From Arenimonas donghaensis DSM 18148 = HO3-R19 (GTDB lineage: Bacteria > Pseudomonadota > Gammaproteobacteria > Xanthomonadales > Xanthomonadaceae): DNA of 64,000 nt. Every line of letters starts with the position of its first letter. Position 1 is the first letter of the stretch. The notes below the pieces were generated by a model. It ran no database searches and was not told where the DNA came from. It worked only from the letters and a program-made list of their open reading frames with translations. Of this stretch, positions 55,211 through 58,939 are shown piece by piece. The stretch lies in NCBI RefSeq assembly GCF_000743535.1, contig NZ_AVCJ01000002.1, positions 1-64,000 on the forward strand. The letters are read 5' to 3'. The position numbers and the translations under genes are program-made.

Positions 55211-55239
55211 TAGCTAGGTGGTTTGGCGTCCTGTATACT
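55211..55239 (+). promoter_or_regulatory. Possible promoter for rpoD
   Basis: TATACT at 55234-55239 is a good -10 box, 38 bp before the rpoD start codon. The best-placed -35 with a 17-bp spacer is TAGCTA (55211-55216), a weak match. The DNA around it is AT-richer than the flanks. Confidence 0.5.
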
Positions 55240-55277
55240 GCGCGGTTCCATTTTCCCTCGTCTCGGGACACGTTTTC

Positions 55278-57131
<1,854 letters not shown>

Positions 57132-57194: not shown

Positions 57195-58442
57195 TCAGTC
57201 GCGTGCCTCGACACGATCGCGCCCGTTGGCCTTTGCGCGATAGAGGCGGCGATCCGCGGCTTCGATGAGCTGCCCAAGTGTCTGGCCGTCTTGTGGCATG
57301 GACGCCACTCCGAAGCTGGCCGTCGTAGCCACCGGGCTGATGCCCCTCTCGTGCAGGGACGCGACTTGGAACCGCAGCTGTTCCGCGATGCCGATGGCGC
57401 CGGACAGCGCGGTGTTGGGCAGGACCATGACGAATTCCTCGCCGCCGTAACGACAGAGATAGTCGGAAGGTCGCCGGCCGCCCGCGAGACAGGTTGCGGC
57501 GGCCCGCAGCACCGCGTCACCGACCCGGTGGCCGTGGGTGTCGTTGATCTGCTTGAAATGGTCTAGGTCGATGAACATGAGGGAAAGCGGATGCTTCGCC
57601 CGCGCGCAGGTGGAGACATCGTGCTGTGCAGTGACGTCGAAGTAGGCGCGATTGAACACTCCCGTCAGGCCGTCGTGCATGGCCTCGCGGCGCGCCAGCT
57701 CGTACTTCTGGCGGTAGGTGAAGATCGCGAAGATCTCGCGCGGCTTCCCGCCCTGGAAAAACGCGAACGGTTCCCGCTCGAAATGGTTGAGGTAGGTCGT
57801 GCAGACCAGCGCGTAACCGGTGGCGACCATCGTCTTGCTGAGCACCGAGTTCAACAGCGTCACCCAGTACTCTGCCGCCGGCGCGTCCCAGAACACTGCG
57901 GTGATGAAGACCAGGCTGTCGAAGGCGAGGACGGTGGTAAGGGTGGCTACTATCGGCAGGAACAAGCCGCGGGCCCACCGGGCGAAGAACTCGTAGAGCA
58001 CCACCACCAGGACGGCGTCGACCGCGAGCAGGACGGTGCCGAGTACGAGCGTGCCACCTCCGTAGAACAGGCTCCTGGCATTGAGCCCCGGTCCGTTGAG
58101 AACGGAGGGATCCTGTACCTGGAGCGACAGCAGGAACATCAAGGCACCGGCGGCTGCGTTGGCGGCCAGCAGGGCGAGGATCAGCCGCCGTGCCTCCGGG
58201 GCGTCTTCGCGCAGGTAGACCAGCAGCACCCCCACCAGGCCGGCACTGAACATCACCGAAGAGCCGGGGCTGAACACCAGGCCGAGGCTGGTCGGCACGA
58301 AAATCGTCGCGGTGAGCGTCTGCAGTACCTGCAGCGCGCCAATGAACACGTACATGGGCGCGAGGCCGAATCTCTGGCGAAGGCCGAACAGCAGGAGCAG
58401 GGTCAACACGGCGATCCCTGCCTGCAGTGAGATGCCCAGCAT
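57195..58442 (-). CDS. Diguanylate cyclase (GGDEF) with a VUT/YhhQ-like membrane domain
   Basis: 415 residues. ATG 58442 is fixed by AAGGAG six bases upstream. Residues 1-235 form about six or seven membrane helices; the segments LPIVATLTTVLAFDSLVF, FITAVFWDAPAAEYWVTLL and MVATGYALVCTTYL read like the queuosine-precursor transporter family (YhhQ, VUT). The C-terminal 170 residues are a GGDEF domain with DGLTGVFNRAYFD, metal-binding FIDLDHFKQIND, active-site YGGEEF, and an inhibitory-site RxxD five residues before it (RPSD). It therefore should make c-di-GMP with product inhibition. The membrane assignment is from memory of the family pattern, and the ligand is unknown. Confidence 0.85.
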   Translation of the reverse strand: MLGISLQAGIAVLTLLLLFGLRQRFGLAPMYVFIGALQVLQTLTATIFVPTSLGLVFSPGSSVMFSAGLVGVLLVYLREDAPEARRLILALLAANAAAGALMFLLSLQVQDPSVLNGPGLNARSLFYGGGTLVLGTVLLAVDAVLVVVLYEFFARWARGLFLPIVATLTTVLAFDSLVFITAVFWDAPAAEYWVTLLNSVLSKTMVATGYALVCTTYLNHFEREPFAFFQGGKPREIFAIFTYRQKYELARREAMHDGLTGVFNRAYFDVTAQHDVSTCARAKHPLSLMFIDLDHFKQINDTHGHRVGDAVLRAAATCLAGGRRPSDYLCRYGGEEFVMVLPNTALSGAIGIAEQLRFQVASLHERGISPVATTASFGVASMPQDGQTLGQLIEAADRRLYRAKANGRDRVEARD

Positions 58443-58587
58443 GGTGACTCCTTGGCCGGCAGCGAGTGGCGACGAGGTCAGCACCCCGATTATGCAGCCT
58501 GCCGGCCAATCCCGCCGGGCTCGGATTGGGGGCAATCGAAGGCTACGCCCATCCGGTACCGCCGTTTTCGTTATACGATTCCCCCAC

Positions 58588-58902
58588 GGGCCTATAGCTC
58601 AATGGTTAGAGCAGGGGACTCATCGAAAGGTGTCGCCGCCCAGGAATGGGCGGACGAGAACGGGATGAATTCAGGGAAACCGCAGCGGCGTGGCGACACG
58701 GCCGGCGGCAATCCTGAGCCAAGCCGGCGGTACACCGCCGGAAGGTGCAGAGACTACCTGGGGGCTCGAGTGCCCTTGATGACAGGCTAGAGCGTCCCGC
58801 ACCCCACTCGCCGAGGCGAAGGGTGAAGAGATAGTCCGCGCCGGGGGAAACTCCGGGACCACGCGAATCCCTTGGTTCCAGGTTCGAGTCCTGGTGGGCC
58901 CA
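58588..58902 (+). tRNA. tRNA-Ile(CAU) interrupted by a group I intron
   Basis: The 5' exon is 58588-58623 and the 3' exon 58866-58902; joined they make a 73-nt tRNA without encoded CCA (the genome reads ACAT). All arms pair: acceptor GGGCCTA / TGGGCCC; D stem GCTC / GAGC; anticodon stem GGGGA / TCCCT with loop CTCATAA; T stem CCAGG / CCTGG with TTCGAGT loop. The anticodon is CAU. The GACTCATAATC context resembles E. coli ileX, so this is the isoleucine tRNA whose C34 is changed to lysidine by TilS to read AUA, rather than a methionine tRNA. The intron lies between positions 36 and 37. Confidence 0.95.
58624..58865 (+). ncRNA. Group I self-splicing intron (IC3-like, 242 nt, no ORF)
   Basis: P1: exon CAU pairs with GUG at 58630-58632, with the hallmark U-G pair at the 5' splice site, closed by a C-G pair over a GAAA loop (58625-58628). 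P2: CCGCCC 58636-58641 / GGGCGG 58648-58653. P4: TTCAGG 58670-58675 / CCTGAG 58713-58718. P6a: CCGGCGG 58724-58730 / CCGCCGG 58735-58741. P7: GACTA 58752-58756 / TAGTC 58832-58836. P8: CACCC 58800-58804 / GGGTG 58821-58825. P9: 58841-58856 with a GAAA loop. The last intron base is G (58865). The core strings GAGCCAAG and AGAGACTA match what I recall of the Azoarcus tRNA-Ile intron. No homing endonuclease is encoded. Confidence 0.93.
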
Positions 58903-58904
58903 CA

Positions 58905-58939
58905 TGAATCCCGCGCAAGCGACGCCACGAAGGGATTCA
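58905..58939. repeat. Inverted repeat just after the tRNA
   Basis: TGAATCCC (58905-58912) and GGGATTCA (58932-58939) are perfect inverse complements separated by 19 nt. It starts 3 nt after the tRNA 3' end. It could help tRNA 3' processing or end transcription, but no T-run follows. Confidence 0.5.

Follow-up and report, generated by a model that had tools for sequence, protein, structure and literature searches.

Reviews list group I introns in tRNA genes from cyanobacteria, alpha- and betaproteobacteria (PMC4033280). Among the closest described counterparts of the locus reported here is the intron in tRNA-Ile(CAU) of Azoarcus, whose 3-nt guide GUG pairs with the exon CAU, as it does in our intron (PMC6274277). 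Group I introns also occur in the tRNA-Ile2 genes of Acidovorax and Burkholderia, according to the tRNAscan-SE 2.0 paper (PMC8450103). For gammaproteobacteria, putative group I introns have been described in tRNA-Arg and tRNA-Leu genes of Beggiatoa and Thiomargarita (PMC4853749). We found no report in the open-access literature of a gammaproteobacterial tRNA-Ile2 intron clade or of its P7.1 extension.

Here we analyze a very probably single-copy tRNA-Ile(CAU) gene at 58588-58902 (+ strand) of a 64-kb window, meaning the whole stretch of DNA that was analyzed. An insertion separates its last anticodon base, position 36, from position 37. With a probability of roughly 94%, we read it as a single tRNA-Ile2 (CAU) gene interrupted at 36/37 by a group I ribozyme of a gammaproteobacterial clade, the splicing of which would yield a 73-nt tRNA.

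A tRNA-Ile(CAU) gene interrupted after its anticodon

The gene and its upstream neighbors are arranged as follows:

55218-57131, + strand: rpoD (sigma-70), upstream neighbor, identified by Pfam; near the tRNA in split and intronless congeners
57195-58535, - strand: VUPS-GGDEF sensor/diguanylate cyclase gene, between rpoD and the tRNA
58588-58623, + strand: 5' exon, tRNA-Ile(CAU) bases 1-36, ending in the anticodon CAT; equal to the 5' half of the contiguous tRNAs of congeners G077 and G181
58624-58865, + strand: group I intron, 242 nt, ORF-less, with the terminal (omega) G at 58865; RF00028 match, 29 same-site homologues in the family
58866-58902, + strand: 3' exon, tRNA-Ile(CAU) bases 37-73, from the spliced fold and the contiguous tRNAs of congeners

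At default settings ARAGORN called no tRNA in the 64-kb window, nor in the unspliced gene. Once 58624-58865 was taken out, the same program returned a clean cloverleaf with the anticodon CAT, which confirms to the exact coordinates the claim of the initial annotation that 242 nt after CAU must be removed for the tRNA to fold. The Rfam search suggested there also gave a covariance-model match: the region matches Intron_gpI (RF00028) with E=3.9e-11 and a score of 50.0 bits, which equals the gathering threshold. In a whole-genome scan the same intron scored 47.2 bits, just under the gathering score, and nothing else in the draft genome (2.98 Mb) matched RF00028. Because the Rfam score alone is marginal, the case rests on comparative evidence.

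Two intronless congeners (G077 and G181) carry a contiguous 73-nt tRNA that equals the predicted spliced product at 73 of 73 positions, and this identity fixes both splice sites. Across 123 introns, CAT precedes and G terminates the intron without exception. The halves of anticodon-stem pair 28-42 are separated by the intron, and the pair is G-C in 76 cases, A-U in 36, U-A in 9 and C-G in 1, with a single mismatch. The complementarity of pair 28-42, kept across the intron, directly indicates that the two halves function as a single molecule. The exons also contain C4:G69 and C5:G68, the identity elements of E. coli TilS (PMC12514573), which mark the gene as a tRNA-Ile2 (CAU) distinct from both tRNA-Met genes. 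A 3' CCA is absent from the gene at 58900-58905 (GGGCCCA-CAT) and is encoded in many intron-bearing relatives. No ORF is contained within the 242-nt intron, and the ORFs that overlap it extend beyond it and have no Pfam match. An intron-encoded homing endonuclease, the hallmark of mobile group I introns, was likewise not found in the 242 nt.

We then asked which other tRNAs might read AUA. Counting with the Rfam tRNA model together with sequence stretches in the 51-contig draft assembly, we obtained 42 contiguous tRNA genes and one weak match; two of the genes have the anticodon CAU, and both are Met-type. Among the tRNAs of the draft genome we found no tRNA-Ile(UAU), and a search with the spliced tRNA as query recovered no second tRNA-Ile(CAU), which answers the gene count proposed in the initial annotation as far as the draft goes. 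The tRNA-Ile(GAU) and tRNA-Ala(UGC) genes were missing from the 51 contigs too, probably reflecting an unassembled rRNA operon, and the draft therefore cannot prove the absence of a second tRNA-Ile(CAU). In 12 single-contig genomes that carry the intron, of which 10 reach a completeness of 99% or more, we likewise found no tRNA-Ile(CAU) free of an interruption, the other hits being tRNA-Lys, Arg, Met and Asn genes. The split gene is thus very probably the sole AUA-decoding tRNA gene. The genome has tilS, and AUA is rare in rpoD (ATA, 1 of 620 codons). Neither E. coli nor B. subtilis allowed tilS to be deleted (PMC12514573), and because TilS acts on this same tRNA, tRNA-Ile2 is taken to be indispensable.

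Secondary structure and covariation of the intron

We drew helices P1 to P9, together with P7.1/P7.1a, by hand on the window sequence:

58621-58632, + strand: P1, formed by exon CAT plus intron C (58621-58624) and by GGTG (58629-58632), closed by a GAAA loop and having its U.G pair at the splice site; 4 pairs invariant in 93 introns
58633-58657, + strand: P2, GNRA-type loop; compensatory changes in all 10 pairs in 93 introns
58661-58799, + strand: P3 (58661-58667/58793-58799); hand-drawn structure scored on the 93-intron alignment
58670-58718, + strand: P4 (58670-58675/58713-58718) enclosing P5 (58680-58683/58705-58708); Rfam match and 93-intron alignment
58719-58745, + strand: P6 and P6a; in 93 introns P6a is paired throughout (100%) and six of its pairs covary
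58752-58836, + strand: P7, GACTA (58752-58756) with TAGTC (58832-58836), putative guanosine-binding helix by homology; invariant
58757-58786, + strand: P7.1 (58757-58760/58783-58786) and P7.1a (58761-58765/58772-58776), between P7 and P3; across the 93 type-A introns P7.1 does not vary and P7.1a shows covariation
58800-58825, + strand: P8 (58800-58804/58821-58825); hand-drawn structure, 93-intron alignment
58838-58864, + strand: P9.0 (58838-58840/58862-58864) and P9 (58841-58846/58851-58856), GAAA loop; P9.0 97.5% paired

The window intron shows the features by which group I introns are recognized, namely the U.G pair of P1 at the 5' splice site, P3 to P8, the P7 pseudoknot and the terminal G. 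All elements named in the initial annotation (the P1 U-G pair, the GACTA/TAGTC pairing of P7, P4, P6a, P8, a P9 with GAAA loop and the terminal G) are present, and a hairpin at 58757-58786 had been overlooked: P7.1 (CCTG/CAGG) with P7.1a (GGGGC/GCCCT). An IC3 intron of the kind represented by the Azoarcus and Synechococcus ribozymes lacks P5abc and has no P7.1/P7.2 between P7 and P3; here P5abc is absent but P7.1/P7.1a is present. We looked for a P10 pairing in the window intron and found none that was convincing.

The drawn structure holds up in the alignments. In the 30 introns of the family, 95.6% of cells are paired, versus 88.7% in shuffled and 34-43% in slid versions, and 136 cells are changed on both sides, versus 43.5 in shuffles. 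The 93 type-A introns (defined below) give 94.2% paired cells and 619 double changes, compared with 190 after shuffling and 81-176 after sliding. As shuffling takes no account of relatedness, sliding provides the fairer control. Covariation in the 93 introns is found in P2, P6a, P7.1a and P9.0; P1 and P7 are invariant and therefore uninformative in this respect. The position of the 3' splice site is fixed by the exchange of P9.0 pairs (GC/AU/GU and GC/UA/AU/CG). Most relatives have a non-standard pair at one place in P5, and the drawn P9 pairs only in part across the alignment. An unconstrained minimum-energy fold of the whole gene, computed for one strand, gave z=-4.2 and recovered most of the helices.

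Distribution and types of introns at the tRNA-Ile(CAU) site

An RF00028 match is present in 30 of 299 genomes (10%) of the Lysobacteraceae (Xanthomonadaceae), the family to which the window belongs, spread over 14 of 54 genera, and in 54 of 370 genomes sampled over the Gammaproteobacteria of GTDB, a class that takes in the betaproteobacteria. The description of such introns as rare in the initial annotation was thus an overstatement. All 30 carriers of the family have the intron in tRNA-Ile(CAU), directly after CAT and ending with G before AATCC, and same-site introns include those of Lysobacter daejeonensis and Luteimonas aestuarii, named members of the Lysobacteraceae. The best 30 of the 54 class matches, counted by eye, lie in tRNA-Ile(CAU) (18), tRNA-Thr(UGU) (4), tRNA-Leu(UAA) (3), tRNA-Lys(CUU) (1) and outside tRNAs (4). 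A pattern scan of named genomes returned at least 100 matching stretches; the same exact pattern, which misses some true introns, was found in 2 of 299 genomes of the phylum, both of this class.

Among 27 genomes of the window's genus, the tRNA gene is split in 10 and contiguous in 15, and no genome has both forms. In several congeners, with and without the intron, rpoD is a near neighbor of the tRNA, which makes the split and contiguous genes alleles of one locus. About 100 bases separate rpoD from the tRNA in several congeners, versus the window, in which the VUPS-GGDEF gene lies between them. On an RpoD tree of the genus, the presence of the intron needs about seven state changes, three of them forced by well-supported branches, and carriers cluster no more than in shuffles. 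The tree place of one genome (G280) is not reliable, its RpoD row being aberrant. Over 27 carriers, the distances between introns are correlated with those between rpoD genes (Mantel r 0.39, 0 of 5000 permutations). Yet the intron closest to that of the window is one from another genus (in G120), at a distance of 0.087, with an rpoD distance of 0.212. We rejected strict vertical descent, despite the Mantel correlation, on the basis of the seven or so state changes and of the nearest RpoD neighbor of the window's genome (G129), which is without the intron. The distribution is compatible with descent accompanied by frequent loss, and also with a degree of exchange. A search of plasmids gave no match to the intron and one of phages only short partial matches, so there is no sign of a vector.

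Three types of intron can be distinguished at the tRNA-Ile(CAU) site. Type A, in gammaproteobacteria, has the P7.1 CCTG..CAGG; type B, in betaproteobacteria, is Azoarcus-like and without P7.1; type C, mostly in Burkholderiales, has a different insert. On the intron tree, which has long branches, 250 columns and an uncertain deep order, the 93 type-A introns including the window copy form one clade (support 100/97), within which the Lysobacterales introns and one from an Algiphilus MAG form a subclade (100/99). Type B stands apart from type A, and six of the type-C introns cluster with those of tRNA-Thr. Traced further back, all types are related group I introns.

Other insertions were seen in the same searches. 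Four tRNA-Thr(UGU) genes (L099, L100, L103 and L107) have group I introns after the anticodon, which the tree groups with type C of the Burkholderiales, and a tRNA-Lys(CUU) gene (L111) is also interrupted after its anticodon. Three genomes of one gammaproteobacterial family (L116, L122 and L124) contain tRNA-Leu(UAA) group I introns. Four group I matches lie outside tRNAs (L113, L119, L123 and L125), and L113 and L123 have the 23S rRNA-like sequence 'ACGGTCCTAAGG' at the insert. Five Azoarcus-type introns (L153, L175, L192, L198 and L213) measure 394-416 nt and so exceed the short members by about 190 nt, with the additional sequence near the 5' end. Matches resembling the tRNA-Ile(CAU) intron were also found in MAGs of other phyla, assigned to Opitutia (L167), Cytophagales (L202) and FCPU426 (L194), for which transfer or a binning error is possible.

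Splicing, competing readings and known systems

Two-step guanosine splicing is the best-supported mechanism, by homology with the Azoarcus intron. The exon CAU would pair with the GUG guide of the intron to form P1, placing its U.G at the splice site, and a guanosine bound in P7 would attack the 5' splice site. G58865, the last base of the intron, would then take the place of this guanosine in P7. The U of CAU, now free, would attack the 3' splice site and so ligate the exons into the 73-nt tRNA. This product would then need CCA addition and lysidine formation, and its CAU anticodon would be read as lysidine-AU after modification by TilS.

We weighed this reading against three others. The split gene could be a dead pseudogene, with AUA read by another tRNA-Ile(CAU) or a tRNA-Ile(UAU) in an assembly gap, and the draft state of the assembly, which also yielded neither tRNA-Ile(GAU) nor tRNA-Ala(UGC), would leave room for such a gene. 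However, the exons equal those of intact congeners at every base, pair 28-42 shows covariation between the two exons, and the 12 single-contig carriers have no uninterrupted copy; given these genomes and the exon covariation we rejected this reading, which is scarcely credible. The element might instead be a group I intron by descent that now needs a host protein for splicing. Protein-assisted group I introns exist (reviewed in PMC3984707), and catalysis by the window intron is a prediction from homology. Against this stand the core helices, which are all intact, with most core pairs invariant. Moreover, the Azoarcus tRNA-Ile intron and cyanobacterial tRNA introns reportedly self-splice. Dependence on a host protein is unlikely on balance, and a self-splicing ribozyme remains our preferred reading.

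The remaining alternative concerns ancestry. The initial annotation had proposed that this ORF-less group I intron in a gammaproteobacterial tRNA-Ile(CAU) occupies the same site as the Azoarcus intron and that it is of the same lineage. A shared lineage, by descent or by recent transfer, would account for the common tRNA, site and guide (PMC6274277) and for the core words AGCCAAG and GAAGGTGYAGAGACTA that both introns have. The phylogeny speaks against this second proposal. Betaproteobacteria close to Azoarcus, among them Rhodocyclaceae, Sterolibacterium and Gulbenkiania, represent it in the tree, where type A and the Azoarcus type form separate clades instead of one, and P7.1 is found in every type-A and in no Azoarcus-type intron. 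An AU test rejected placing the Lysobacteraceae introns with type B (p=7e-5) and, weakly, placing the window intron alone there (p=0.037, for a hypothesis framed after seeing the tree). We therefore regard a lineage shared with the Azoarcus intron as distinctly improbable. Tentatively, and at slightly less than even chances, we suggest that site 36/37 was invaded more than once: by type A in gammaproteobacteria, by type B (the Azoarcus type) in betaproteobacteria and by type C, with its closest tree relatives in tRNA-Thr(UGU), in Burkholderiales. Type A would then be a separate subgroup, with an IC3-like core plus P7.1, that moves and is lost without an endonuclease and leaves close species differing in the ribozyme dependence of an essential tRNA.

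The bacterium of the window and many other gammaproteobacteria appear to depend on one ribozyme for an indispensable tRNA. Split genes tend to escape genome annotation, and the tRNA is then reported as absent. The patchy presence of the intron at one orthologous locus among species of a genus, with no endonuclease, offers natural with/without pairs for studying intron cost, loss and spread.

Like the window intron, the IC3 intron of Azoarcus sp. BH72 sits after the anticodon of tRNA-Ile(CAU) and has GNRA loops on P2 and P9 and an ORF-less group I core. Its type (L178, L180 and other betaproteobacteria) differs from the window intron in lacking P7.1, in forming a separate clade and in having short members of 204 and 205 nt. 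The Acidovorax and Burkholderia introns (PMC8450103) interrupt the same tRNA and are overlooked by standard tRNA finders; they are betaproteobacterial, and we liken them to the window intron by the tRNA that they interrupt. Burkholderiales introns in the present tree are of types B and C, never A. The cyanobacterial and plastid introns of tRNA-Leu(UAA) and tRNA-fMet are also group I introns in the anticodon loop (PMC4033280), but of other tRNAs, and the three gammaproteobacterial tRNA-Leu(UAA) introns in our tree are distant from the window intron. The Beggiatoa and Thiomargarita introns share with it a place in gammaproteobacterial tRNA genes, again of other tRNAs, and the paper assigns them no type (PMC4853749). 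The P7.1 region has a counterpart in the phage T4 td intron (IA2), which has a P7.1/P7.2-type extension between P7 and P3 (PMC4498298), an extension that sets td apart from two IC3 ribozymes (PMC4498298). The host of td is a protein gene, and the window extension is a single P7.1/P7.1a hairpin that we liken to it by position. With tRNA introns known mainly from cyanobacteria, alpha- and betaproteobacteria, type A adds a distinct gammaproteobacterial branch, and the window intron, judged by its predicted helices, is filed not among the standard IC3 introns but as a group I variant in which an IC3-like core is combined with a P7.1 extension.
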